DNA from: Aerococcus suis
GTDB lineage: Bacteria > Bacillota > Bacilli > Lactobacillales > Aerococcaceae
Direction: 5' to 3'
DNA length: 64,000 bases
NCBI RefSeq assembly: GCF_900176325.1
Contig: NZ_FWXK01000001.1
Span: forward strand, 217,770-281,769
Shown here: positions 31,100-45,727 of the stretch, one piece after another
Position numbering within the stretch: the stretch's first letter is position 1
Layout of the letters: the number at the start of each line of letters is the position of its first letter
Program-made: the position numbers and the translations under genes
Notes under the pieces: generated by a model
What the model was told of the DNA's origin: nothing
Database searches by the model: none
What the model saw: the letters and a program-made list of their open reading frames with translations, nothing else

Positions 31100-31936
31100 A
31101 TGTTGTCTTCAATCCCATTTCGAATTAAAGTCCGTCCGATTACTGCCCAAGCGATTGGGCAATATAATCAAACATCATTTCATCGCCATGAATTAGTCTT
31201 TGCTAAGAAGCCGATTCAACTCTTATTTGATGATGATGCCAAGGTCCCATTAAATATGTACCATATTGCTGTCCTACCTAGTTCAGTAGCGCGTCGGTTA
31301 GAATTACCTAAAGCTAAAAATAATCAACCAGCTGGAGACTATGGTTTTTTCGTTTCAATTAGTGATAACTTTTTAAAATCAATTTCTGAAAGTTTTATTG
31401 ACACACCTGAAACCCTATCCTTATTTAATGAACCCCACATTTTACATTATTCATTTAAAACGTGGCGGCATCTCTTACATATTGTCGATAAATTAGACTA
31501 TCGTTTGAATGAAGAACCAACAGATATCTCACGGAAAATTTCCTTTGCCCTAGCTTCCCAATTATTTTTGGAAATTTATGAATTATTAAAAAATCCAAAT
31601 GCCGAAAAACTCAAGGTTGATGAGCGGGAACAATTAGCTTTTCAAATAAAAACTTACGTAGAAGCACATTATTCAGAAGACATTACGATTACAGAAATTG
31701 CTGATTTATTCCAAGTGAGCACTTCAACTATTAATCGCTTTTTCCATGATTATTTCGAATCGACTCTCTATCGATTTATTTTATTCCTTCGCCTACAAGC
31801 TGCCCATGACTATATCGAACAAGGGTATTCGGTCACAGAAAGTTGGCAAAAAGCTGGTTTTAATGATTATAGTAATTTCTATCGTGCTTTTATGAAACAC
31901 TTTCACTATCGCCCTCATGAAACTGTAAAAAAATAA
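31100..31936 (+). CDS. AraC family transcriptional regulator
   Basis: A 278-residue regulator. The C-terminal about 100 residues form the double helix-turn-helix of AraC/XylS, with ITITEIADLFQVSTSTINRFFHDYF and SVTESWQKAGFNDYSNFYRAFMKHFHYRPHE. The N-terminal 180 residues are an effector domain without a clear cupin HxH pattern. It follows alr by 30 bases and ends at a terminator shared with galT. Its target is unknown; neighbours alr and galT give two candidates. It is distinct from the cupin-type AraC regulator at 44831. Confidence 0.88.
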   Translation: MLSSIPFRIKVRPITAQAIGQYNQTSFHRHELVFAKKPIQLLFDDDAKVPLNMYHIAVLPSSVARRLELPKAKNNQPAGDYGFFVSISDNFLKSISESFIDTPETLSLFNEPHILHYSFKTWRHLLHIVDKLDYRLNEEPTDISRKISFALASQLFLEIYELLKNPNAEKLKVDEREQLAFQIKTYVEAHYSEDITITEIADLFQVSTSTINRFFHDYFESTLYRFILFLRLQAAHDYIEQGYSVTESWQKAGFNDYSNFYRAFMKHFHYRPHETVKK

Positions 31937-31967: not shown

Positions 31968-33473
31968 TTATTGTTGATTAAAGTAAGAAATAAATTGTTC
32001 GAATCCTGTACGTCCATCGTCATCTGTTTTGAAGACACCCGCATCTTCAAGAATCCGAGTAAAGATATCTCCTAAACTTTTTTCGACAATTTCTTGTGCT
32101 TCTGTTTCAGTTGTTGGGTGATAATTGGCTTTTAAATCCTCCGCCCAAGCTTGATGCATCGTTTCTACTTGAGATAATTCTTCTTTATCAAGTAAGAAAG
32201 CTCTAACATCAGCTAATTCTGTTTTTAGACGTGGCGGTAAAATCGCCAATCCCATCACTTCAATCAATCCAATATTTTCTTTCTTAATATGTTGGACATC
32301 AGCATGAGGATGGAAAATACCATCTGGATGTTCTTCATTTGCACGATTATTCCGTAAGACTAGGTCCATTTCATATTGTCCATCTTTCATACGTGCAATT
32401 GGCGTAATCGTGTTATGCCGTTCATCGTCAGTATAAGCTAAAATATCACGCGCTTCATCAGAATAACCAATCCATGCTTGTAATATATCATCAGCACATT
32501 GAACTAACTGTTCTTTATCACTCGTACGTAAACGAATGACTGACATTGGCCAGTCGACTAAACCGGCTTCAATCATTGGATAGTTATCCAGTGAAATGTG
32601 TTGATAAATAGGGGCTTTTTCCATTGGGAAAGTATGGTGGCCACCTTGATAATGATCATGGCTTAATACAGACCCACCCACTCCAGGTAAGTCAGCATTT
32701 GATCCCACAAAATAATGTGGTAAATGATCAATAATCGCTAATAAGTTTTTAAACGTTTGTTTATGCACTTTCATTGGTTCATGATGTTCATTAATAAAGA
32801 TAGAATGTTCATTATAGTAAACGTATGGAGAATATTGGAAACCATATGTTTTGCCATCTAAATCTAATCGAACAATCCGATGATTTTGACGTGCCGCATG
32901 AGATTTATCGCCTTTAAATCCTTCATTTTCGAAGCATAGCGCACATAATGGATAGTTGCTACTTGGATTATTTTTAGCAGCTGCGATTTCTTTCGGTGAT
33001 TTTTCTGGTTTAGACAGATTAATGGTAATTTCCATTTCACCGTATTGACTTTGACTAGTAAATAAAATATTTTTGGCAATATTACGTGTTTTAATATAAT
33101 CATTTTGTTGGGCTAAATGATAGAAGTAATCCGTTGCTGCTTCAGGACTCTCATTATGGTATTTATCCCAGAAAATATGATTAACGACTGATGGCTGTGG
33201 AGTTATTAAATCCATCAACTTCGCTTCAAAAATTTCTTGATCAGCGTGTGACTCATCAATCATTCCTTTTTCGCGTGCGAATTCTACCAATTGGTCCATG
33301 GCACTCAATAAATCACCTGATTGATTGGTATCCTCTAATTCGTCGATACTGTTCAAATCAAAGATTGCCAATAGCCGGTTCGTCACATAGTTTTTATCAA
33401 TTGCCGAGATGGCTTCTGATTCAATAGCAGCATGAACAAATTGTTGAATAGCTGCTTCGATTGTTCCTTTCAT
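31968..33473 (-). CDS. galT: UDP-glucose--hexose-1-phosphate uridylyltransferase (class II GalT)
   Basis: Leloir pathway enzyme exchanging UMP between UDP-glucose and galactose 1-phosphate. At 501 residues it is the Gram-positive class II form, with LCFENEGFKGDKSHAARQNHR, SVLSHDHYQGGHHTFPMEKAP (active-site histidine in the GHH stretch) and a long C-terminal domain. It begins 18 bases after galK, with AAAGGGAG before its ATG, and together they handle galactose freed by BgaC. No galE is present in the window; it must be elsewhere. Confidence 0.95.
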   Translation of the reverse strand: MKGTIEAAIQQFVHAAIESEAISAIDKNYVTNRLLAIFDLNSIDELEDTNQSGDLLSAMDQLVEFAREKGMIDESHADQEIFEAKLMDLITPQPSVVNHIFWDKYHNESPEAATDYFYHLAQQNDYIKTRNIAKNILFTSQSQYGEMEITINLSKPEKSPKEIAAAKNNPSSNYPLCALCFENEGFKGDKSHAARQNHRIVRLDLDGKTYGFQYSPYVYYNEHSIFINEHHEPMKVHKQTFKNLLAIIDHLPHYFVGSNADLPGVGGSVLSHDHYQGGHHTFPMEKAPIYQHISLDNYPMIEAGLVDWPMSVIRLRTSDKEQLVQCADDILQAWIGYSDEARDILAYTDDERHNTITPIARMKDGQYEMDLVLRNNRANEEHPDGIFHPHADVQHIKKENIGLIEVMGLAILPPRLKTELADVRAFLLDKEELSQVETMHQAWAEDLKANYHPTTETEAQEIVEKSLGDIFTRILEDAGVFKTDDDGRTGFEQFISYFNQQ

Positions 33474-33491
33474 TATTTCTCCCTTTCCTTA

Positions 33492-34673
33492 TTAATCTGA
33501 AACTTTTTCAGCACCTGGTCCAATTTCAGCAACATAGAAGCTAGCAGCATAACCAATTTTTTCTTTGTATGCCTTATTAATGACATCAATAACGTGATCT
33601 ACGTTATCTTTATTGACTAAAGCAATAGCGCAACCGCCCATACCTGCTCCTGTCATACGAGCACCTAGGACACCGTCACATTCCCAAGCTTCTTGAACCA
33701 ACGTATCTAATTCAACACCAGTCACTTCATAATCATCACGTAAACTAATATGTGATTCATTTAGTAATTGACCGAATTTTTCTAAGTCACCGGCTGCTAA
33801 TACCTCTTTAGCTGCTTTGGTCCGATTATTTTCAGATACAGCATGTTTTGCTCGTTTATACAAAATAGGATCAGTTAATAAATCACTATTAGCTTCAAAT
33901 GTTTCGTTCGTTAAATCACCTAACGTTTGAATATCTAATTTCTCTTGTAAGCGTGCTAACGCTGCATCACTTTCTTGGCGACGTTGGTTATATTTAGAAT
34001 CTGCCAATTCGCGACGTTTATTCGTATTCATGATTAAAATGACATTGTCTTTAAAATCAACTGGAACTTTTTCGTAGTCTAGTGTATTAACATCTAAATA
34101 TAATGCCGTGTCAGTTTCACCAAAACCAACAGCAAATTGGTCCATAATTCCTGAATTAACACCAATAAAATGATTTTCCACTTGTTGGCCAATTTTCACT
34201 AAGTCTAAACGAGAAATATTCAATTGGTCCAAATCATCAACAATAACACCAATCAATAATTCTAATGAAGCTGAAGAGGATAAACCTGCACCATTAGGGA
34301 TATCACCGTAAATCAATAAATCGAACCCTTGAGTCACCTCATGACCTGCTTTTTTGATAAAGTGAACGACACCTTTCACAAAGTTAACCCATTCATCATC
34401 GTCATCGTAGGTCAAGTCATCATCAATATTAAAAACTTTAGTGCCTAAATCAGCAAAGTTTTCAGAGTAAGCGTGAACTTCCTTATCATCACGCAACCCC
34501 ACTAATGCCATTGTTCCTTTTGTAATAGCACAAGGGAAAACATGTCCTCCACTATAATCGATATGTTCACCGATTAAATTCACACGACCAGGTGAAAAAT
34601 ACGTTTTATCGTGTTTATAACCAAAAATATCGTTAAATTTAGCAGCTAATTCTTCTGTATGTTTTAAATCCAT
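33492..34673 (-). CDS. galK: Galactokinase
   Basis: Phosphorylates galactose to galactose 1-phosphate. The 393-residue GHMP kinase shows PGRVNLIGEHIDYSGGHVFPCAI-type galactose signature (split here as PGRVNLIGEHIDY, 28-40, and the following SGGHVFP), the ATP loop NGAGLSSSASLE and the third motif GARMTGAGMGGC. ATG 34673 is chosen because GAGGTGA lies 6 bases upstream; a GTG three codons before overlaps that site. It heads a galK-galT unit placed after the PTS operon; a hairpin at 34715-34747 between them may reduce read-through from that operon. Confidence 0.96.
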   Translation of the reverse strand: MDLKHTEELAAKFNDIFGYKHDKTYFSPGRVNLIGEHIDYSGGHVFPCAITKGTMALVGLRDDKEVHAYSENFADLGTKVFNIDDDLTYDDDDEWVNFVKGVVHFIKKAGHEVTQGFDLLIYGDIPNGAGLSSSASLELLIGVIVDDLDQLNISRLDLVKIGQQVENHFIGVNSGIMDQFAVGFGETDTALYLDVNTLDYEKVPVDFKDNVILIMNTNKRRELADSKYNQRRQESDAALARLQEKLDIQTLGDLTNETFEANSDLLTDPILYKRAKHAVSENNRTKAAKEVLAAGDLEKFGQLLNESHISLRDDYEVTGVELDTLVQEAWECDGVLGARMTGAGMGGCAIALVNKDNVDHVIDVINKAYKEKIGYAASFYVAEIGPGAEKVSD

Positions 34674-34714
34674 AATTGTCACCTCTTCTATCTCTAATTA
34701 ATAAATGTCTAGAT

Positions 34715-34747
34715 AGATAGAAAGGCTGGGACACATGTCCCAGCCTC
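34715..34747 (-). terminator. Terminator after the bgaC-PTS operon
   Basis: GGCTGGGACA (34724-34733) pairs perfectly with TGTCCCAGCC (34736-34745); the minus-strand tail CTTTCTATC is only moderately T-rich, so partial read-through into galK is possible. Confidence 0.8.
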
Positions 34748-34778
34748 CTATCGCTTATTAGCTGGAAAGCTTTACAAC

Positions 34779-35183
34779 TTATTCGTCATCGTCATCATTC
34801 ATCATTGCTTGTAATTTTTCATTAACGTTAGCAATGTTTTCTTGACTTGATGCCACATAGTCTTCGTCTGTACCAACTAGCTCTCCATTAATAAATGATA
34901 TGATCATTGGTAAGTTCATACCTGCATATAATTCAATGTTTTTACCAGCAAGAACTAATTTAGAAACCACATTACATGGTGTTCCACCCATTAAATCCGC
35001 AAAGACAACCATTTCATCCATAGATTCAGTTGTTTCTAAGAATTTTTTTTGGAAATCTTCAGGACCTTCTTCTGGTTCTAAAATGACTGTATGAATGTTT
35101 TCTTGTTCTCCCATAATCATTTCAGCACTTTGTTTAATACCTTCTGCAAAATGACCATGACTAACTAAAACCAATGTTTTCAC
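34779..35183 (-). CDS. PTS mannose-family IIA component
   Basis: A 134-residue cytoplasmic phosphocarrier. The phosphorylated histidine is H9 in VLVSHGHFAEG, followed by the family's FADLMGGTPCNVV. It takes phosphate from HPr and passes it to the IIB protein at 36912-37394. The start codon is GTG with AAGGAG upstream. The C-terminus is a short run of aspartates. It is the last gene of the operon bgaC-IIB-IIC-IID-IIA, the order found in the pneumococcal bgaC locus. Confidence 0.94.
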   Translation of the reverse strand: MKTLVLVSHGHFAEGIKQSAEMIMGEQENIHTVILEPEEGPEDFQKKFLETTESMDEMVVFADLMGGTPCNVVSKLVLAGKNIELYAGMNLPMIISFINGELVGTDEDYVASSQENIANVNEKLQAMMNDDDDE

Positions 35184-35199
35184 TCTTTAAAATCTCCTT

Positions 35200-36006
35200 C
35201 TATTGAATAACTCCTAATGCTGAAAGTGCAACACAGACAACTAATACAATAAAGATTGCTTTTGTAGATGTCATACGTTTTCTACCTAGTAACCAGTAAA
35301 CACCACCAACGATTGCTGCTGGTAATAATCCTGGCATAATTTGGTCAGCAATGTTTTGAACGTCAACAGTAACATCACCAAAGTGTGGTGTAATCGCAAA
35401 TTGAACACGTACCATTGTCGCACATAGGGCACCTACCATGAATACCCCCATTAAAGTAGCAGCATCAGTTAAAGCTGTTAATTTGTCTGACATTGTTGTA
35501 ACGAATGCTGAACCTTCACGGTAAGCAACATCAATAGATTTCCAACGGAAGAACATAACGAAGATGTTCGCTACAATCCAAATAAATAGACCAGTTGGGT
35601 TACCTTGGCTTGCCATGTTTGCTGCAATCGCACCGAAGATGGTTGGTAATAACGCACCAAAGATTGAGTCACCAATCGCAGCGAATGGTCCCATTAAACC
35701 AGCTTTTAAACCAGCAACCGTTTCTTTAGCTGCGTAACCTTCTTCTTCTTCGACCGCTAAGTCAATACCTGTAACAATCGTATTTAAGAAGTTTGACGTA
35801 TTGAAGAATTGTGCATGAGTTTTCATCATGTCTTTTAATTCATCAGTATTGTCTCCGTACATTTTACGTAATTGTGGAAGGATAGTATATAGATATCCTG
35901 ATCCTTGCATTCTTTCATAGTTCCAACCAGATTGGAAACCGAATAAGCTACGACGGTTAATTTGATTGAAGTCTTTTTTCGTTAATTTATAATTAGATTT
36001 CGTCAT
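35200..36006 (-). CDS. PTS mannose-family IID component
   Basis: A 268-residue membrane subunit. It opens with the polar KKDFNQINRRSLFGFQSGWNYERMQGSGY stretch of IID proteins, then GPFAAIGDSIFGALLPTIFG and several hydrophobic segments toward the C-terminus. With IIC it forms the sugar channel. ATG 36006 is 9 bases after GGAG and overlaps the end of the IIC gene by 14 bases, so translation is coupled; the TTG two codons upstream is less likely. Confidence 0.94.
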   Translation of the reverse strand: MTKSNYKLTKKDFNQINRRSLFGFQSGWNYERMQGSGYLYTILPQLRKMYGDNTDELKDMMKTHAQFFNTSNFLNTIVTGIDLAVEEEEGYAAKETVAGLKAGLMGPFAAIGDSIFGALLPTIFGAIAANMASQGNPTGLFIWIVANIFVMFFRWKSIDVAYREGSAFVTTMSDKLTALTDAATLMGVFMVGALCATMVRVQFAITPHFGDVTVDVQNIADQIMPGLLPAAIVGGVYWLLGRKRMTSTKAIFIVLVVCVALSALGVIQ

Positions 36007-36892
36007 CCTCAATTTCTCCTTCCATATCTGCGTCTACTTGGTTAGCGTTATTAACCGGTTGTTGTTGTGGTTTGGCATTGTTGTTTTTGAATGAAATAGC
36101 TGCTAGAGCAAAACCAATTAATGCAATTGTTAACATTGGTAGGCCATTGAATGTTGCACCAAGATCTTCAACAACAGATGCTACGCCTGTTCCTAATACT
36201 TGAACATTTGAGAATAGAGTTGAGAATAATACAGTAATAATGAAACCTAAGATTAAGTAAGGGAAGTGTTTTTTCACTGGTAAATATCTTAATAAAATTG
36301 CAAAACCTACAGCAGGTAATACTGCACCAGCAACTGTTAATCCGTTACCTAACCATGCTAATTGATTATTTAAAACATCAACAACTGCTTCAACAACGCC
36401 ACTACCAAATACTAATGCTAAAAATACTGGAAGTGCACGAGAAAGTGTCCATGATAAGTTACCTAATAAGAAGTTACGTTCGATTCCTTTGTAGTTATGA
36501 TTTTCAATATTTGTATCTACACGGTGTGCAAAGAAAGTATTTGCGAAACGTGCAAGAACGTCTAATTGAATCATTAAGGCTGCTACCGGAACCGCTAAAA
36601 CTGCGATTGCTTGTTGTGGGTCCATGTCAATTGCGATTGAGAATGCTGTTGCTAAAACTGAACCTGAGTTAGCATCGATACGTGAAGCACCACCGAAAGT
36701 ACCAACACCTAAAATCGTTAATTGCATACCACCACCGATAATTAAACCAGTTGTTACATCACCCATTACTAACCCAGTGAAGAATCCTGCGAATACAGCA
36801 GAACCTGCTGATGAATAGATATGTAATTCATCCCAGATTTGGTACCCTGCATATAAGGTTAGTAGTAAAATTTGCCACCATTGAAATTCCAT
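35993..36892 (-). CDS. PTS mannose-family IIC component
   Basis: A 299-residue integral membrane subunit with about seven to eight hydrophobic segments and the IIC motifs FAGFFTGLVMGDVTTGLIIGG-like N-terminal repeats and GTFGGASRIDANSG. It carries the sugar across the membrane. The acidic tail after about residue 275 is polar and probably cytoplasmic. GGAGG lies 8 bases before the ATG. It is followed by the overlapping IID gene. Confidence 0.94.
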   Translation of the reverse strand: MEFQWWQILLLTLYAGYQIWDELHIYSSAGSAVFAGFFTGLVMGDVTTGLIIGGGMQLTILGVGTFGGASRIDANSGSVLATAFSIAIDMDPQQAIAVLAVPVAALMIQLDVLARFANTFFAHRVDTNIENHNYKGIERNFLLGNLSWTLSRALPVFLALVFGSGVVEAVVDVLNNQLAWLGNGLTVAGAVLPAVGFAILLRYLPVKKHFPYLILGFIITVLFSTLFSNVQVLGTGVASVVEDLGATFNGLPMLTIALIGFALAAISFKNNNAKPQQQPVNNANQVDADMEGEIEDDEI

Positions 36893-36911
36893 TATTCTTC
36901 CTCCACAATAA

Positions 36912-37394
36912 TTATGCTTCTTTTAAAAGTTTCATTAAGTCTTGTTCTGGATCATTAGGTACCATTTGTGCTTTTAAGTAGACACCTTTGTTATCCAATT
37001 CTTTAAAGACTTCAACGTCTTCGTCAACCACATTGATTGAGTTTGTAATTGAACGTGTTTCGTCTGTTTGTGACATGTTACCAACGTTAATAGTATCTAA
37101 TGGCACACCTGCTTCAATTAAGCGTAAGTATGTTTTTGGACGACGAGCCACAATGAAGACACGTTGTGAATCATATTTACCAGCTAAAATGTTTTTAGCG
37201 GCTTTTTCAACAGGTAGTACACTTAATTTAACACCTGCTGGAGTAGCAAGTTTCAATCCAGATTTTTCAATTGGATCTTCACTTACTCTATCGTCCACTA
37301 CCATGATACGACTAACATTTAATTTAGTACTCCATAAGTTAGCGACTTGTCCGTGAATTAAACGACCGTCAATACGTGCTGCAACAATTGTCAT
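36912..37394 (-). CDS. PTS mannose-family IIB component
   Basis: A 160-residue soluble or membrane-associated protein that phosphorylates the incoming sugar. The phosphorylated histidine is H14 in ARIDGRLIHGQVANLW, a hallmark of the family. Later segments (RVFIVARRPKTYLRLIEAG, TINVGNMSQTDETRSITNSINV) are typical. It follows bgaC by 22 bases with GAGGGAG upstream. The position directly after a GH35 gene suggests uptake of a galactosyl-hexosamine disaccharide. Confidence 0.94.
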   Translation of the reverse strand: MTIVAARIDGRLIHGQVANLWSTKLNVSRIMVVDDRVSEDPIEKSGLKLATPAGVKLSVLPVEKAAKNILAGKYDSQRVFIVARRPKTYLRLIEAGVPLDTINVGNMSQTDETRSITNSINVVDEDVEVFKELDNKGVYLKAQMVPNDPEQDLMKLLKEA

Positions 37395-37416
37395 AAATAA
37401 CTCCCTCTTTCTTTTT

Positions 37417-39195
37417 TTATTCTTTTATATCCATTACTTTTGGCGAATCAACTAGGTTGATATGGTCTTGATATTTGCCTTCAGTTTCAAATACAACGAT
37501 TTCATTTTCGCCACTATGTAAGAAACCTTTAGCCACATATAATGTTAAGTAAGGACCCACTTCCCAGTAACGTCCAACATTGTGGTTATTAACGAAGACC
37601 ACACCTTTACCAAATCCTTCCATATCAATGAAAGTATCTTTCGGTTGATCAATATCCACAGTAAATTTATAAAAGCCTGGTTGATTATTATGATGGTCTT
37701 TAGTGTAGTCAATTGCAGAAACATCTTCTAAACTCAATGGATATTGAACCCAATCAGTCGCAAAGTGTAAGTCAATTGCTACGCCATTACGAATTCCTTT
37801 TCGTTGTGTCGGAGCGACAAATTTATGTCCATAATTGACACGTCCCATGTTTTCAACAAGTACTGTCAAGTCAGTAACTTCAGTATTTAACTTCACATTA
37901 ATGTCTTCCCCAATTTCTTCTTGATATTGGGTTTTAACATGATTGCCATTGGTGTAGACGTGTACTCGGTCACGAGCGTCAACCACACGAATTCGTTCTG
38001 GATCATCTGTATCTTTTTCAATTTGTGTTTGGTAAAGTGTATATCCTGTATTTTGTCCTAAAGCTTCCATTGTTTTTGGATATTTAGTCCGTTGTGGGGT
38101 TACTAAATCATCCGCCACTTCAAATAATGAAACTTTATCTGTTAATGGGATATCACTAACTGCCATACTTTCTTTAACTAACGGTTCTTTGGTTTCGTAT
38201 TCTGGGAAATATTCATTCATCATTTTTTGTAATGCATAATATTTCTCAGTTGGATTACCTTGCTCATCTAACGGAGCTCCATAATCATAAGACGTCACTT
38301 GTGGTAGATCATGTTGCAACCGTGCAGAACATCCATTCATAAATCCAAAGTTTGTTCCTCCGTGGAACATATAAAGGTTAATTGATCCTAATTCCATAGC
38401 TTCTTTAACGGCATCTACTAATTCATCAGTTTCCCGAGTTACAATTGGTTCATTATAACGATTAAACCAACCATCCCAGAATTCCATTGTCATTAGTGGC
38501 CATTTTTTACCATGTTCATCGAAGAATGATTGCATAGAATCAAAGTTTTTCTTCGCTTTAGAACCGAAGTTTCCGGTTGTAAAAATATCTTCATCAATTA
38601 ATGAACCGGCTCTTAAAGTTGCACGCCATGGGCCATCTGATGTAAATAGTGGTTGTTTAATTCCACGTTCAAGCATCATATGACTTAATTGTTTTAAGTA
38701 TTCTTTATCTTCGCCATATGAGCCATATTCATTTTCTACTTGGAACATTAAGACGTTGCCACCTTCACTTAATTGGTGAGGTAATAGTTTAGGAATTAAG
38801 TGATCGTAGTAACGGCCAACATATTCTAAGTAGCGAGAATCTGAAGAACGTAAGCGCACATCTTTCTCAAGTAACCACGCTGGCATGCCACCAAATTCCC
38901 ATTCTGCACAAATATATGGCGATGGTCGAACAATTGCATATAAACCTAGTTCTTGAGCGATATTTAAAAATCGTTCAATATCTAGCATACCATCAAAATG
39001 ATACTCGCCTTCATAAGGCTCATGCATATTCCAAGGAACATATGTCTCTACTGTATTAAATCCTAATGCTTTTAAGTTATACAAAGAATGGTACCAATCA
39101 TCTGGATGTACACGGAAATAATGAATAGCTCCTGACAGAATTTTCATTGGTTCGCCATTTAGTATAAAATCTTCTTTTATTTCAAACTGTGCCAT
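37417..39195 (-). CDS. bgaC: Beta-galactosidase, GH35 family (BgaC-like)
   Basis: A 592-residue GH35 enzyme without signal peptide or anchor motif, therefore probably cytoplasmic. The barrel opens with LSGAIHYFRVHPDDW; the acid/base is E156 in QVENEYGSYG and the nucleophile E238 in MTMEFWDGWF. C-terminal beta domains follow from about residue 370. Length and operon partners match the pneumococcal BgaC, which is specific for beta-1,3-linked galactose; that specificity is inference here. It is the first gene of an operon with four PTS genes. Its promoter at 39211-39238 lies next to a palindromic candidate operator shared with agaS and galM. Confidence 0.95.
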   Translation of the reverse strand: MAQFEIKEDFILNGEPMKILSGAIHYFRVHPDDWYHSLYNLKALGFNTVETYVPWNMHEPYEGEYHFDGMLDIERFLNIAQELGLYAIVRPSPYICAEWEFGGMPAWLLEKDVRLRSSDSRYLEYVGRYYDHLIPKLLPHQLSEGGNVLMFQVENEYGSYGEDKEYLKQLSHMMLERGIKQPLFTSDGPWRATLRAGSLIDEDIFTTGNFGSKAKKNFDSMQSFFDEHGKKWPLMTMEFWDGWFNRYNEPIVTRETDELVDAVKEAMELGSINLYMFHGGTNFGFMNGCSARLQHDLPQVTSYDYGAPLDEQGNPTEKYYALQKMMNEYFPEYETKEPLVKESMAVSDIPLTDKVSLFEVADDLVTPQRTKYPKTMEALGQNTGYTLYQTQIEKDTDDPERIRVVDARDRVHVYTNGNHVKTQYQEEIGEDINVKLNTEVTDLTVLVENMGRVNYGHKFVAPTQRKGIRNGVAIDLHFATDWVQYPLSLEDVSAIDYTKDHHNNQPGFYKFTVDIDQPKDTFIDMEGFGKGVVFVNNHNVGRYWEVGPYLTLYVAKGFLHSGENEIVVFETEGKYQDHINLVDSPKVMDIKE

Positions 39196-39210
39196 GCTTT
39201 CCTCCCTTTC

Positions 39211-39238
39211 ATCATAGTGTTTATCGATTTAGTTGCAA
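39211..39238 (-). promoter_or_regulatory. Promoter of bgaC
   Basis: On the minus strand TTGCAA, a 16-base spacer and TATGAT, followed by a short leader with GGGAGG. It is the only promoter needed for the five-gene operon. Confidence 0.6.
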
Positions 39239-39244
39239 AAAATA

Positions 39245-39260
39245 ATTTAATATATTAATA
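39245..39260. promoter_or_regulatory. Candidate operator in the bgaC-bgaR intergenic region
   Basis: ATTTAATATATTAATA, a near-perfect 16-bp palindrome six bases upstream of the bgaC -35 box, in the divergent gap to the GntR gene. Similar copies lie at 42320, 42342 and 43484. It is a likely site for the GntR regulator encoded next to it. Confidence 0.6.
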
Positions 39261-39306
39261 TAAGGTTTCAAAATAGTTATCAATTGAAAGGCAGGCCGTT
39301 AGAATT

Positions 39307-40023
39307 ATGAAAAAACCAAAATACGAAATGATTAAAGATGCATTACGTAAAGAAATCACGTCAAGTCATCATTTTAATCCCGGAGATAAATTTTACACAG
39401 AAGCTGAACTCGCTAAGAAATTTAACGTGTCTTCCATTACTGTTATCCGGTCTTTAAACGAACTTGTTAACGAAGGTTATCTCGTTCGCTTTCAAGGAAA
39501 AGGAACATTTATCTCTCGTGCTCGTAAAGATCAGCCCATTAAATTCTCCGATGAAGAAGTATTCCCCATCAAAAATGATCACGTCAAAGTGTTAACCTTA
39601 GAACCAGGAAACAATCCTGAAATCCTTAAAAAGTTAAACTTAGCAAAAGATGATACCTATTACATCATCGAACGTGTCCGCTATAATGTAGACGATCCCT
39701 ATATTTTCCAAAAATCATATATCCCAAGCGCTTACATTGACAAGAGCGATTTAAATCCAGTGTACTACACCTCAATCTATCGGCGCTTCCATGAAGATTT
39801 TAATATCGATATGTCCCAACAATATTTTCGGGAAACTAACGATGTTCGTTTAGACATTCCTGAGAAAGTCCATCAAGAACTAGAACTTAACCCTCATGAA
39901 CCCTGTGTCTATCAAAACCGGCTAACGGTTGGTAGAGATAGCGGGAATACGCTGGAAATTGTTCACTCTTACAAAAAATGGAACTATTTTAAAATTAAAA
40001 TACAGTCCAATGATTGGGAATAA
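39307..40023 (+). CDS. bgaR: GntR family regulator (HutC/UTRA type), probable bgaC regulator
   Basis: A 238-residue regulator. The N-terminal winged helix (about 3-72) has KYEMIKDALRKEI, AELAKKFNVSSITVIRSLNELVNEGYL and RFQGKGTFIS; the rest (about 85-235) is a UTRA ligand domain of the HutC subfamily. It is divergent from bgaC and lies centrally between the bgaC-PTS operon and lacD-agaS-galM, all of whose promoters carry a common palindrome, so it probably represses or activates the whole locus. The pneumococcal bgaC locus also has such a gene. The ribosome binding site (AAAGGCAGG) is unusually far from the ATG. Confidence 0.9.
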   Translation: MKKPKYEMIKDALRKEITSSHHFNPGDKFYTEAELAKKFNVSSITVIRSLNELVNEGYLVRFQGKGTFISRARKDQPIKFSDEEVFPIKNDHVKVLTLEPGNNPEILKKLNLAKDDTYYIIERVRYNVDDPYIFQKSYIPSAYIDKSDLNPVYYTSIYRRFHEDFNIDMSQQYFRETNDVRLDIPEKVHQELELNPHEPCVYQNRLTVGRDSGNTLEIVHSYKKWNYFKIKIQSNDWE

Positions 40024-40060
40024 GGGGGGAAGCCCCCTCGCTACCCTTTCATTAATAACT

Positions 40061-40097
40061 ATCGATTGTTTAGGTCAACTAATTAATCGATTTTTTT
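40061..40097 (+). terminator. Terminator of bgaR
   Basis: ATCGATT (40061-40067) pairs with AATCGAT (40085-40091), followed by seven T. It overlaps the last codons of lacD on the opposite strand. A second small G/C hairpin (GGGGG..CCCCC, 40023-40036) lies just before it and may serve lacD. Confidence 0.65.
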
Positions 40098-41075
40098 GTT
40101 CCAAGGAGTTGCTGTTTCTTTTAAGACAGCATTTAATGCTTCAATATTTGCTTTACCTTCTGTACGTAACCATTCTAATGTTGTTTCTTCGCGGTCACCT
40201 TCAGCAGTTGCGTAAACTTCTACACTATTTTTCCATGTAGACCGTCCACATAATACACCATTAAATGTTGAACCTGCTTCTTTAGCAAATTTCAATGTGT
40301 CTTTGAATAAGTCCATTGAAACACCTGCACTTAAGAAGATGTATGGTAAATTAGTTGCTTCAGCTTGTTCTTTGAATGCTTGTTTTGCTTCTTCTTGTGT
40401 ATAAACAACTTCACCATCGCCGTAACCTTCAACAAAGTTCATATTAACAGGAACTTCCATTTTTAGTACGTCAACTTGGTAACGTGGGTCTGAGAAGACT
40501 TTCATCATTTCGTTAACTTTGTGAGGTTTTACTTTAGCAAATTCAGCAGATTTAGCATCTTCAATATTAGCGTCGTAAGAAACTAATTCTAGGAAGAATG
40601 GAATATCTTCAGCTGCTGCTTCACTACCTACACGTTCAACGAAAGCTTTTTTCTGATCGTTAATTTCGTCGCCTTCATCAACATCATAGTAAACTAAGAT
40701 TTTAACAGCGTCGGCACCAGCTTCTTTAATACGTTTAGCTGACCACACATTTAATAAGTCTGGTAAACGTCCAGGTGTATCAGCGTCATAACCTGTTTTT
40801 TCATAAGCTAGTAATAAACCAGCTGAGTCATCTCTTACTTTAGTTGCTGGTAAACCATATTCTGGGTCTAATAAAATTGAAGAGGCATATTTTGTCAATT
40901 CTTTAGACACAAGGCTTTTGAATTCTTCAATTGTTTCTTGGTCTGTGTCAGCACCAAAACCATCTAACATACGGCGTAATGCACCACGTTGGTCAATCGC
41001 TAATGCAGCGATGACATCATCTTCATTAGATAATTGTTTTAAAGCAGCTTTTTTGTTTTCTGATAAATGTAACAT
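40083..41075 (-). CDS. lacD: Tagatose 1,6-bisphosphate aldolase
   Basis: Cleaves tagatose 1,6-bisphosphate to dihydroxyacetone phosphate and glyceraldehyde 3-phosphate. The 330-residue class I aldolase has [16 protein letters not shown] near the N-terminus, [10 protein letters not shown], and the Schiff-base lysine in [10 protein letters not shown] near residue 205, with FLSAGVS and [11 protein letters not shown] later. AAGGAAGG lies 8 bases before the ATG. It follows agaS by 49 bases on the same strand and would take the product of AgaS after a kinase step. A tagatose 6-phosphate kinase gene is not in the window. Confidence 0.95.
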
Positions 41076-41124
41076 AACATTTTCCTTCCTTTTTATTTTT
41101 TATAATTTTGAAACCATTATGAAA

Positions 41125-42303
41125 TTAAAATTCGTGGATAGTAACGCCTTTAACCACCCGATTGACTGTACCTGTTGCTGAAGGAGTATCTGGTGTGTTA
41201 TCCACTTTTACTGAGGTTAATAGTGCAAATGTTTGTGCCACCATAATATAAGGTAAGGCTAAGTATCCTGCTGGTAATAGAATAGCATCACTTGAGAAAG
41301 TGAAGCGAGAACCTTCAAACTCTTTACCTGAGTCTTGAGATTGTTGTTCGATACCTACAGTTGCTTGCGCAATATCATCAGTAGCTACTTCAGTTAAAAT
41401 ATCGTAATCATATTGACTTGTATATGTATCGTTAGCGACAAAGTCAAACACGATTGTTTTCTCGTTGATAAATGATTTTGGTCCATGACGGAAGCCCATA
41501 GAAGAATCAAACACTGTAGCAACTTGGCCAGCTGTTAATTCTAATAATTTTAATTGTGCTTCACGAGCTAGTCCAGATAAAGCACCTGAACCTAGATAAA
41601 CCACACGATCATAATCTAAGTCGACCCATTTTTGAATATCTTCTTCACGGCTAACAACTTCTTCACCTAAAGTAGCAGCTGCTTTAACATATTCTGCTTT
41701 TTCACTATCAGCTGTTGTATCAAATACTAACATGGCAGATAATGTCATACATGTGAATGATCCTGTCATAGCAAAACCAGCATCGTTAGATTTTTCAGGC
41801 ATTGATAATAGAAATTCATTCTCTTTGCCTTCACTTTCAGTTGCTAATTTTCCTTCTGGTGCACATGTAATCAACAAGTGATAAATATTGTTAACATATT
41901 TATTCGCAATTTCTTTGGCTGCTAAGCTTTCAGGACTATTCCCGCTACGTGCGAATGAAACTAAAATCGTTGTTTCATCTGGGAATAAGTAAGATTGCGG
42001 ATGTGCCACAATATCAGTTGTAGCATAAGATTCAAAAACGAATTGGCTTGTATCCCCTGTTTGGTTTAAATGTGGGGTAACCGTATCACCAACATATTGA
42101 GAGGTTCCAGCACCAGTAAAAATCACACGTACGCGTTTGCCTTGACTATCTGCGGTAACTTTAGCTAAGAAATCTTTAATTTCTTGTTTTTTACCTTCAT
42201 AAATATCAAGCGCTTCTTGCCATAATTTTGGCTGTTGCTTAATTTCTTCAGTTGTTATGCGAGCCCCTAATGTGTCTAATTTTTCTTCACTATAGGTAAA
42301 CAT
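41125..42303 (-). CDS. agaS: Galactosamine 6-phosphate deaminase/isomerase AgaS (SIS domain)
   Basis: A 392-residue protein with two SIS domains (about 45-190 and 215-375) like GlmS without its glutaminase part. Motifs include FTGAGTSQYVGDT, LVSFARSGNSPES and STVFDSSMGFRHGPKSFI (as ATVFDSSMGFRHGPKS). The family converts galactosamine 6-phosphate to tagatose 6-phosphate and ammonia. AAGGAGG lies 6 bases before the ATG. It is upstream of lacD and downstream of galM, with a promoter and two copies of the palindromic operator in the gap to galM. Confidence 0.93.
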   Translation of the reverse strand: MFTYSEEKLDTLGARITTEEIKQQPKLWQEALDIYEGKKQEIKDFLAKVTADSQGKRVRVIFTGAGTSQYVGDTVTPHLNQTGDTSQFVFESYATTDIVAHPQSYLFPDETTILVSFARSGNSPESLAAKEIANKYVNNIYHLLITCAPEGKLATESEGKENEFLLSMPEKSNDAGFAMTGSFTCMTLSAMLVFDTTADSEKAEYVKAAATLGEEVVSREEDIQKWVDLDYDRVVYLGSGALSGLAREAQLKLLELTAGQVATVFDSSMGFRHGPKSFINEKTIVFDFVANDTYTSQYDYDILTEVATDDIAQATVGIEQQSQDSGKEFEGSRFTFSSDAILLPAGYLALPYIMVAQTFALLTSVKVDNTPDTPSATGTVNRVVKGVTIHEF

Positions 42304-42319
42304 AAGTGCCTCCTTATAA

Positions 42320-42335
42320 ATTTAATATATCAACT
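42320..42335. promoter_or_regulatory. Candidate operator, agaS leader copy
   Basis: ATTTAATATATCAACT, matching the bgaC copy over the first 11 bases, between the agaS -10 box and start codon. Confidence 0.5.
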
Positions 42336-42341
42336 TTTCAA

Positions 42342-42357
42342 ATTTAGCATATTAAAT
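42342..42357. promoter_or_regulatory. Candidate operator overlapping the agaS -10 box
   Basis: ATTTAGCATATTAAAT is a palindrome with only the centre imperfect; it covers the proposed -10 box of agaS and would block RNA polymerase when bound. Confidence 0.6.
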
Positions 42358-42374
42358 TTCGACGAAAAAGTCAA
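42346..42374 (-). promoter_or_regulatory. Promoter of agaS-lacD
   Basis: On the minus strand TTGACT (complement of 42369-42374), a 17-base spacer and TATGCT (complement of 42346-42351), upstream of agaS and just after the galM stop codon. Confidence 0.6.
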
Positions 42375-42379
42375 GCGCT

Positions 42380-43423
42380 TCAGATATTTTCATCATTTAA
42401 TTGGTAAACAGTACGGCTATGAAAGGCCTTTCCTGGATTAATTATCAACTCTTCAGGAACATTTGAAAAATTCATAGCATTCGGTAAAAATTGTGTTTCA
42501 ATCGCAATCGCTTGATGAGGTTGACGTTCGCGGTCATTAGGATCATTCCCATTCATCGTATAAATAATCACACTAGGAGCAGTCGTATAAATATCAACGG
42601 CTAGTTTGTTATCCGGTTGTGATAAAGATAAGGAAGGGGCTTGATTGTCATCTAAGATAAATGGATGATCTAATCCGCCTTTTGCTTTTATCTGCTCATC
42701 ATCACTATTAATGATATCTGTTAATAAACGTCCGTTTCTTAAATCAAAAATAGAGTTCGTCACATCTTTTCCTTCCTCATTGATAGGAAGACCTGAATCA
42801 TCGACAGGCATATAGCGAGACGCTTGAATTTGTAATTGATGATTTAAAATGGTTTCATGGTTAGCATTTAAATTAAAGTATACATGGTTGGTTGGATTGA
42901 CGATGGTTTCCTTATCCGTCTCAACATCGTAATCAATTATCCAAGCATTATTATTTGTTAAACGATGCGTTACCTTAAATGTTACATTGCCAGGATAACC
43001 ATTACGTCCATCAGGATCTGTCCATTCAAATGTCACAAAGACACTCTCGTCATCTTCTCCAATAGTATAATTCCATTGGTCCAAGTCTATTGAAATCTCA
43101 CCGCCATGTAGGTGATTTTTTCCTTCATTTTGGTCCAAGTAAACAGTTTCTCCATTTAATGAAAATTGTCCATCAGCAATACGACCAGCTACTCGTCCGA
43201 CAGTTGCTCCTAAATAATAACTATGTAAATCAAAAACTTCTTTGGCATCTTGATGCCCTTCGACGATATTTACCATTTCCCCTGATGCCAACGGGACATT
43301 GAATCCAACTATTCGTGCACCTAAGTCTGTCACTTCGATACTCACTTGATGATCATTTTCTAAAATTATTTTATGATAGGTCATTTCTTGATATTGACCA
43401 AATATCGTTTCCTCTATATTCAT
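42380..43423 (-). CDS. galM: Aldose 1-epimerase (galactose mutarotase)
   Basis: Interconverts alpha and beta anomers of galactose so that GalK can use what BgaC releases. The 347-residue beta-sandwich protein has the catalytic histidine in NPTNHVYFNLN, a second histidine in LHGG (NHLHGGEIS), GGLDHPF and the catalytic glutamate in AIETQFLPNAMNF. AGGTGAAAG lies before the ATG. Its promoter (43462-43489) carries both a cre-like site and the palindromic operator. Transcription could continue into agaS, which also has its own promoter. Confidence 0.95.
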   Translation of the reverse strand: MNIEETIFGQYQEMTYHKIILENDHQVSIEVTDLGARIVGFNVPLASGEMVNIVEGHQDAKEVFDLHSYYLGATVGRVAGRIADGQFSLNGETVYLDQNEGKNHLHGGEISIDLDQWNYTIGEDDESVFVTFEWTDPDGRNGYPGNVTFKVTHRLTNNNAWIIDYDVETDKETIVNPTNHVYFNLNANHETILNHQLQIQASRYMPVDDSGLPINEEGKDVTNSIFDLRNGRLLTDIINSDDEQIKAKGGLDHPFILDDNQAPSLSLSQPDNKLAVDIYTTAPSVIIYTMNGNDPNDRERQPHQAIAIETQFLPNAMNFSNVPEELIINPGKAFHSRTVYQLNDENI

Positions 43424-43461: not shown

Positions 43462-43489
43462 ATACTATGTAACCGTTTCCTACATTCAA
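43462..43489 (-). promoter_or_regulatory. Promoter of galM
   Basis: TTGAAT, 16-base spacer, TAGTAT on the minus strand; the -35 lies within the candidate operator and the spacer holds a cre-like site. Boxes are only fair matches. Confidence 0.5.
43468..43481 (-). promoter_or_regulatory. Probable catabolite responsive element (cre) at galM
   Basis: On the minus strand AGGAAACGGTTACA fits the CcpA consensus TGWAANCGNTNWCA at all but positions 1 and 3. It lies between the -35 and -10 boxes of galM, where CcpA binding would repress. Confidence 0.6.
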
Positions 43490-43499
43490 TATATTAAAT
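43484..43499. promoter_or_regulatory. Candidate operator at galM promoter
   Basis: ATTCAATATATTAAAT, one substitution from a perfect 16-bp palindrome, overlapping the galM -35 box. Confidence 0.6.
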
Positions 43500-44830: not shown

Positions 44831-45727
44831 ATGATGATGACAACTGCTCAATTTAATCTTACTCCAAGCTTGTTTCATTTTGCTTATTATGACACATTAA
44901 AACAATCCTTAAATGATAAGCCACACTCAATAACTACTGATTTGCCTGATGCTTCATGGCATACTCATGATGAGATAGAATGCATCCTCTACTTGGGAAA
45001 CTTATGTCACTATAAAATTGATAATCAAACATTCACATTATATAAAGGCGATGTGCTAGTAATCCCTGCCCATACCCCGCATCAAGCGATTTATGAGGAA
45101 AAAATTAATCATGCTCGTTACGTCATTCGTCTATCTTCTGAACTATACCAACAGTTTGTATTGTCTAACCCTACATATACCCAAGGCCTTAACGATTTAA
45201 TCACTAAAGCTAAAATTTATCGATTGAACACTGGCGATTTAGATTACATTCTACAAGAATTCCAATGCATCGTTCCGCTCGTTTCCAAGGCAAATGACAT
45301 TTATCCATTTGCCATCGCTTATCACTTATTCCAAGCGATGATTCATTTAGTCCAAAGTTCACAATCAAATCGTTTACCTGGCAACTATCACGAAGACCAT
45401 CACTTTAGTCATATTATCTATTATATTGACCATCATTTTCGTGACCCCAATCTTCAATTACAGCGGATAACGGAAGAATTTGGTCTATCACCCTATTATT
45501 TTTCGAAATTGTTTCGCCGTGAAATGAATTTAAATTTCCATGACTATTTAATTCAAAAACGAGCAAATTATGCAGCAAATTTAATGCGGAGTTTCCCGCA
45601 ACACTCATTATCTCTACAAGAGGTTGCTAGTCAATCTGGATTTGGAGATTATTCAACCTTCTATCGTAGTTTTAAAAAAACATTTACACAATCACCCAAA
45701 GACTTTATGCGTTCACTCGCAAAATAA
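44831..45727 (+). CDS. AraC family regulator with N-terminal cupin domain
   Basis: A 298-residue regulator. The N-terminal cupin (about 30-115) has WHTHDEIECILYLGNLCHYKID and KGDVLVIPAHTPHQ, typical of sugar-sensing AraC proteins such as MsmR or RafR. The C-terminal double helix-turn-helix (about 190-295) has LQLQRITEEFGLSPYYFSKLFRRE and SLQEVASQSGFGDYSTFYRSFKKTFTQSPKDF. Three consecutive ATG codons follow AAGGAG; the second or third gives the best spacing. Its closeness to the galactoside genes suggests, but does not show, a role in sugar control. Confidence 0.9.
   Translation: MMMTTAQFNLTPSLFHFAYYDTLKQSLNDKPHSITTDLPDASWHTHDEIECILYLGNLCHYKIDNQTFTLYKGDVLVIPAHTPHQAIYEEKINHARYVIRLSSELYQQFVLSNPTYTQGLNDLITKAKIYRLNTGDLDYILQEFQCIVPLVSKANDIYPFAIAYHLFQAMIHLVQSSQSNRLPGNYHEDHHFSHIIYYIDHHFRDPNLQLQRITEEFGLSPYYFSKLFRREMNLNFHDYLIQKRANYAANLMRSFPQHSLSLQEVASQSGFGDYSTFYRSFKKTFTQSPKDFMRSLAK

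Follow-up and report, generated by a model that had tools for sequence, protein, structure and literature searches.

A probable galacto-N-biose cluster in Aerococcus suis with distant candidate pathway genes and a predicted three-promoter regulon

Gene content of the locus

The window analysed here is a stretch of 64,000 nucleotides from Aerococcus suis (contig NZ_FWXK01000001.1 of assembly GCF_900176325.1), and the sugar-utilisation locus under study lies at its positions 31968-43423. The locus holds eleven genes, all of them open frames without internal stops (Table 1), arranged in three stretches: galM-agaS-lacD on the reverse strand, gntR on the forward strand, and bgaC-IIB-IIC-IID-IIA-galK-galT on the reverse strand. 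The gntR gene separates lacD from bgaC and runs divergently from the latter. A previous sequence-only reading had listed ten of these genes, namely the four components (IIB, IIC, IID, and IIA) of a phosphotransferase system (PTS), the GH35 beta-galactosidase BgaC, GalM, GalK, GalT, AgaS, and LacD, and all ten are confirmed by open frames and family matches. The eleventh, which it had left unnamed for the window, encodes a regulator with GntR and UTRA domains. Inspection by eye places two starts differently: galK probably begins at the ATG at 34673 rather than at the listed GTG, and IID probably begins at the ATG at 36006.

The BgaC protein matches the structure 4e8c, which we take to be pneumococcal BgaC, with 893.5 bits over residues 1-591, and retains its stretches QVENEYGSYG and MEFWDGWF. 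It has the BgaC-type architecture: a GH35 catalytic domain, two C-terminal domains, and both catalytic glutamate stretches. No signal peptide was seen by eye, which suggests an intracellular enzyme. We compared the window with 80 related loci, the best 80 of 419 BgaC relatives found in one BgaC scan, of which 61 span at least 17 kb. The identity of 61-66% to the BgaC of these loci suggests a preference for beta-1,3 over beta-1,4 linkages; a literature search on BgaC specificity residues gave nothing usable. AgaS matches the structure 3i0z, presumably the pneumococcal AgaS, with 399.8 bits. The window has two marks of gnb/aga clusters: a mannose-class PTS adjoins the gene of an apparently intracellular GH35 enzyme, and the isomerising deaminase AgaS is encoded within the cluster. 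Judged from its sequence, the locus is very probably a cluster of this known kind, dedicated to galacto-N-biose (GNB), the disaccharide of galactose and N-acetylgalactosamine (GalNAc) Gal-beta-1,3-GalNAc.

Table 1. Genes and regulatory features in and around the locus (window positions).
Feature	Position	Strand	Evidence
galT (type 2), UDP-glucose--hexose-1-phosphate uridylyltransferase	31968..33473	-	NF003633, 728.5 bits, and TIGR01239 (galT_2), 722.7 bits, both above cut-off
galK, galactokinase	33492..34682	-	NF003705, 598.1 bits, above cut-off
Terminator-like hairpin between IIA and galK (approximate span)	34725..34747	-	Predicted folding energy of -32.1 kcal/mol for 101 nt from the gap, without shuffle control
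PTS EIIA, mannose class	34779..35183	-	PF03610 (EIIA-man), 81.2 bits, above cut-off; AgaF, 77.4 bits, below cut-off of 130
PTS EIID, mannose/AGA class	35200..36012	-	TIGR00828, 181.5 bits over most of the length, below cut-off of 292.75
PTS EIIC, mannose/AGA class	35993..36892	-	AgaW, 129.5 bits over most of the length, below cut-off of 300
PTS EIIB, sorbose/mannose class	36912..37394	-	PF03830, 171.6 bits, above Pfam cut-off
bgaC, GH35 beta-galactosidase	37417..39195	-	PF01301 (Glyco_hydro_35), 401.1 bits, above cut-off, and two further beta-galactosidase domains
Operator motif TTTAATATATTAATATA, between gntR and bgaC	39246..39262	+	Sole genomic match (1.38 Mb) to the 17-mer without mismatch
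gntR, GntR/UTRA regulator	39307..40023	+	PF00392, 53 bits; PF07702, 54.8 bits
lacD, tagatose 1,6-bisphosphate aldolase	40083..41075	-	NF009065, 546.3 bits, and TIGR01232, 493.6 bits, above cut-off
agaS, galactosamine-6-phosphate isomerising deaminase	41125..42303	-	TIGR02815, 415.4 bits over nearly the full length, below cut-off of 529.2
Operator-like site upstream of agaS, 1 mismatch	42321..42333	+	Motif scan
galM, aldose 1-epimerase	42380..43423	-	PF01263 (Aldose_epim), 231.5 bits, above Pfam cut-off
cre-like site (CcpA), upstream of galM	43467..43481	+	Only exact consensus match in the window
Operator motif TTTAATATATTGA, upstream of galM	43486..43498	-	One of 5 places with the exact core in 1.38 Mb

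Candidate genes for the remaining steps

The deacetylase, the tagatose 6-phosphate kinase, and the UDP-galactose epimerase had been described as missing, and a genome search for nagA/agaA, lacC or a PfkB-type kinase, and galE had been proposed. They are indeed absent from the locus, but not from the genome (13 contigs, 1,382,195 bases in total, completeness 97.94%), in which we found a candidate for each step. Three proteins match PF01979: a dihydroorotase-like protein, an imidazolonepropionase-like protein, and a single NagA (TIGR00221, 301.7 bits for a cut-off of 225.65), encoded outside the cluster. There are four PfkB matches, one below the cut-off, and a kinase on contig C9 has LacC as its best family (PRK13508, 399.7 bits for a cut-off of 469; TIGR01231, 383.2 bits for a cut-off of 409.55); its gene comes after lacA and lacB. 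The single GalE, on contig C8, scores above its cut-off (442.1 bits) and completes the Leloir set of GalM, GalK, GalT, and GalE, while the tagatose-6-phosphate pathway is represented by the LacC-like kinase and LacD. Contig C9 also encodes a NagB-like protein (TIGR00502, 229.8 bits for a cut-off of 236.9).

The region of C9 around the LacC-like gene (L091:13398-19537 and L092:672-2141) is a second tagatose-phosphate locus. Besides a DeoR-like regulator, lacA, and lacB, it contains genes for a PTS whose IIC is of the galactitol type and for a GH1 protein resembling 6-phospho-beta-glucosidases, as well as another lacD (67% identical to that of the window) that is divergent from the lacA, lacB, and LacC-like genes. 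Adjoining the LacC-like gene is one for a GH2-family protein of 1534 amino acids with an LPXTG motif (L091:8674-13278).

A GH101 enzyme as a candidate supplier of the disaccharide

The genome encodes a GH101 endo-alpha-N-acetylgalactosaminidase of 1912 amino acids (contig C3, L124:4127-9865) that carries six GH101-associated Pfam domains (the catalytic one and five others), an F5/8 type C domain, and an LPXTG motif. By eye, its gene adjoins those of ribosomal proteins L21 and L27. GH101 enzymes free GNB from core-1 structures, according to PMC6109692.

We searched for the family in 100 genomes, including that of the window, and found it in 20; it is present in 0 of 14 control genomes. BgaC has a match in 34 of the 100, and setting aside two weak or partial matches (G037 and G059) leaves 32 genomes with a full-length protein, two of which (G025 and G064) have one in-frame stop each. 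The GH101 match of G004 is partial and lies at a contig end. Full-length BgaC and GH101 occur together in 12 of the 20 GH101 genomes (odds ratio 4.5, Fisher p = 0.0039), in 11 when the genome of the window is removed (p = 0.0074), and in 9 of the 17 GH101 genomes within the taxonomic family (p = 0.0032), all three tests ignoring kinship between genomes. In one relative (G079), agaS, nagA, lacD, IIB, bgaC, IIA, and the GH101 gene are consecutive, with a BgaC only 48% and an AgaS only 36% identical to those of the window. In this stretch (L123, 1435-16367), the GH101 gene is followed by one whose product of 1267 amino acids combines internalin-type domains with a weak match for mucin binding.

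Operator motifs and predicted regulation

The regulator has three features of the AgaR type: GntR and UTRA domains, a gene divergent from bgaC, and a palindromic motif in the shared gap. The 17-mer form of this motif, TTTAATATATTRAWRTA, has one exact match in the genome, in the gntR-bgaC gap, and 20 matches with at most two mismatches on both strands, against 10 for a backward control. Its 13-base core, TTTAATATATTRA, is found exactly at five places (the bgaC gap, the galM gap, C2:182092, C4:129753, and C7:94656) and the backward control at none; by eye, the neighbours of the C2 and C4 sites have no plain tie to sugar use. Allowing one mismatch, the core occurs at four places in the window, three of which are the bgaC, galM, and agaS gaps. 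A weaker copy upstream of agaS, at 42343-42356, lies by eye over a promoter-like -10 element. Three of the four upstream gaps tested in the locus contain the core, against a maximum of one in each of 3000 shuffles, a test that ignores the fact that the motif was derived from the bgaC promoters of relatives after the gaps of the window had been seen. We therefore expect the bgaC-PTS genes, galM, and agaS-lacD to be co-regulated.

The galK gap has no such motif, even with one mismatch, and the hairpin of Table 1 separates galK from IIA, so that galK and galT may stand outside this regulon. The hairpin is not among the matches of our terminator scan; the promoter and terminator consensus scans gave results near the shuffle level. 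The cre-like site upstream of galM matches the consensus exactly; matches with at most one mismatch are at chance level in the window (42 found, 39.3 expected).

In 36 of the 80 related loci, the 250 bases preceding bgaC contain the core TTAATATATTAA with at most one mismatch. The other 44 include most loci of the pneumococcus and mitis group, and many of these carry the published operator letters instead. The core is upstream of agaS in none of the 61 loci that have this gene (at more than 45% identity). In 17 loci agaS lies elsewhere than downstream of bgaC, and in 16 of them the closest gene upstream of it, among those searched, is another GntR. We see roughly equal chances for and against a re-wired core-1 O-glycan regulon in Aerococcus, in which a single GntR repressor would have come to control three promoters (bgaC-PTS, galM, and agaS-lacD) whose regulation is shared out between two GntRs in relatives with this layout, with Leloir genes adjacent and an LPXTG-bearing GH101 supplying the sugar.

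Comparison with known and related clusters

Three described systems resemble the locus. In the gnb operon of Lactobacillus casei, a mannose-class PTS serves for both uptake and phosphorylation of GNB and lacto-N-biose (LNB); the operon also encodes the GH35 enzyme GnbG, which acts on beta-1,3 galactosyl-hexosamines, a GalNAc-6-phosphate deacetylase, and an isomerising deaminase, and GNB is its main inducer (PMC6109692). The same PTS class, hydrolase family, and deaminase step are found here, with a candidate elsewhere in the genome for the deacetylase step, but the window has lacD, galM, and galK-galT nearby and a cluster without deacetylase (the L. casei side of this comparison is taken from that paper). 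The pneumococcal aga operon is bgaC-gadVWEF-agaS-galM and is repressed by a GntR regulator (PMC5018945); the content that the sequence-only reading gave for this locus (regulator, BgaC, PTS, AgaS, and GalM) agrees with that source. Both loci have gntR divergent from bgaC-IIB-IIC-IID-IIA, together with agaS and galM, and their BgaC proteins are 64% identical (L025). They differ in that agaS, galM, and a lacD lie across gntR in the window, in the letters of the operator, and in the presence of galK-galT after IIA. Finally, the cluster of the Enterococcus avium group (gntR-agaS-lacD-kinase / gntR-bgaC-IIB-IIC-IID-IIA) shares the order agaS-lacD-(gntR)-bgaC-IIB-IIC-IID-IIA and has the operator core before bgaC in L011-L020. 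In the Enterococcus cluster, a kinase gene follows lacD and another GntR precedes agaS, whereas in the window galM precedes agaS, with an operator motif of the bgaC type.

We counted the genes of the locus in the 80 related loci, requiring at least 30% query coverage, scoring loci that end early as absences, and noting that galM-type matches at 32-39% identity may be paralogues. The PTS genes are nearly universal (IIB 80, IIC 80, IID 79, IIA 79), followed by agaS (61), galM (61), lacD (29), lacC (10), and nagA (5), with galK and galT in none. In ten stretches from relatives, which were also counted and two of which (L115 and L116) are longer views of L070 and L071, lacD is present in 7, nagA in 6, galK in 2, and galT in none. 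Of the three genes that the sequence-only reading took as additions to the pneumococcal type of locus, lacD is thus a usual neighbour, and galK-galT is a rare neighbour of bgaC, seen in these comparisons in this genus. In the congeners G007 and G011, galM, galK, and galT also adjoin the bgaC cluster, though differently arranged, just beyond the flank of the loci counted (L070 and L071). The three genes are together in three congeners (L127, L128, and L130, from G007, G011, and G004), two of which have them next to the bgaC cluster; the window has galM on one side of this cluster and galK-galT on the other. The galK-galT pair is also found in genomes without bgaC, such as G003 and G008. Another congener, G001, has nagA, agaS, bgaC, the PTS, and lacABCD in one stretch (L113) and no galK match in its genome at an E-value of 0.001.

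The proposed pathway and its alternatives

A route from host glycan to glycolysis can be proposed. The GH101 enzyme, encoded elsewhere, would free GNB from unmodified core-1 O-glycans. The PTS would import it and phosphorylate C6 of the reducing GalNAc, a step that we infer from the case of L. casei, and cytoplasmic BgaC would split GNB-6-phosphate into free galactose and GalNAc-6-phosphate. The galactose would be converted to glucose-1-phosphate by GalM, GalK, GalT, and the distant GalE. GalNAc-6-phosphate would be deacetylated by the single, distant NagA, and AgaS would turn galactosamine-6-phosphate into tagatose-6-phosphate and ammonia; the distant LacC would phosphorylate tagatose-6-phosphate, and LacD would cleave the bisphosphate into dihydroxyacetone phosphate and glyceraldehyde-3-phosphate. 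GntR would probably repress bgaC-PTS, galM, and agaS-lacD through their shared operator until an inducer derived from GNB or GalNAc is formed, and CcpA may add catabolite control at galM.

Several observations weigh against this scheme. The substrate of the PTS is not readable from its sequence, and AgaS, IIA, IIC, and IID fall short of the curated cut-offs set for the GalNAc-type NCBIfam models; IIB is likewise below its NCBIfam cut-off, and both IIA and IIB exceed those of Pfam. NagA lies outside the cluster and may instead act on the 6-phosphate of N-acetylglucosamine (GlcNAc), since its ten best solved matches are all named GlcNAc-6-phosphate deacetylases. None of the five exact operator cores of the genome is near nagA, lacC, galE, or the GH101 gene, and the published pneumococcal AgaR operator of 20 bp is absent from the bgaC gap, where the closest counterpart differs from it by 6 mismatches and sits at another place than the motif found here. 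Eight of the 20 GH101 genomes are without full-length BgaC, and 20 of the 32 genomes with full-length BgaC are without GH101. Finally, the genome has no PF13088 sialidase, in a search that left aside other sialidases, lacto-N-biosidases, GH20, and GH129; sialylated core 1 would thus require the help of other organisms.

The alternative that fares best concerns galK and galT, which might be a housekeeping Leloir pair merely downstream of a functional unit made of galM, agaS, lacD, gntR, bgaC, and the PTS. The hairpin, the galK gap without operator motif, the occurrence of the pair in relatives without bgaC, and the single GalT of the genome favour it, whereas the position of galK-galT directly downstream of IIA on the same strand and the differently arranged Leloir genes beside the bgaC cluster of G007 and G011 argue for a closer tie. 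We regard this as a serious possibility, if not quite an even one, and it is compatible with a GNB cluster because the single galT would still serve galactose.

It is improbable that LNB is the disaccharide of the locus instead of GNB. The genome encodes NagA and the NagB-like protein, activity on Gal-beta-1,3-GlcNAc has been reported for pneumococcal BgaC (cited in PMC5018945), and LNB is among the sugars carried by the Gnb PTS. Yet LNB gives rise to neither the galactosamine nor the tagatose phosphates on which the AgaS and LacD of the locus act, GH101 releases GNB, and in L. casei GNB and GalNAc are strong inducers of the gnb genes, whereas LNB has hardly any effect (PMC6109692). The sequence-only reading had left the choice between core-1 and milk-type disaccharides; GNB now appears better supported than the milk-type LNB because AgaS, LacD, and GH101 all concern GalNAc. 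An operon for GalNAc or galactosamine as monosaccharide, with free GalNAc as main substrate and a side role for the GH35 enzyme, is similarly doubtful: the Gnb PTS also carries GalNAc, which induces the pneumococcal aga operon (PMC5018945), but the PTS unit of the window begins with bgaC, and IIB comes after bgaC in 79 of the 80 related loci (the exception is L043), which suggests that hydrolase and PTS travel together.

If the GNB reading is right, this little-studied species should be able to exploit core-1 mucin O-glycans all the way from their release to glycolysis, and the genes listed here, with the predicted three-promoter regulon, form a full set of candidates for this use. The chemistry of the pathway is already known, as is this kind of cluster in lactobacilli and streptococci. 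A search that mostly left out subscription papers found no literature linking Aerococcus with endo-alpha-N-acetylgalactosaminidase, and we make no claim of a first report; a broader one gave nothing on the subject among the titles listed.

Origin and neighbourhood of the cluster

To look for horizontal transfer, we built one tree of BgaC with 37 rows and one of IIC with 36, from 36 hand-picked loci, of about 100, and the window. The trees do not speak clearly for or against it: the window is in no starred group of the BgaC tree, and in the IIC tree it falls in a starred set of 19 rows with the congener G001 and streptococci. By identity, the closest rows are from Enterococcus (66% for BgaC, 73% for IIC). 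BgaC relatives were found in 76 of 72,556 plasmid records, 20 of them from Enterococcus. The E. faecium plasmid pSRR24 (L151) carries a bgaC-PTS cluster with the core order of the E. avium group, the kinase, and the second GntR, adjoining a transposase. On a conjugative E. faecalis plasmid (L152), the PTS genes of the bgaC-PTS cluster are interspersed with one for a parallel beta-helix protein and followed by one for an arylsulfatase; this cluster is perhaps a variant for another, sulfated glycan. In the window itself, AraC-type regulators flank the locus on either side (31100-31936 and 44831-45727).

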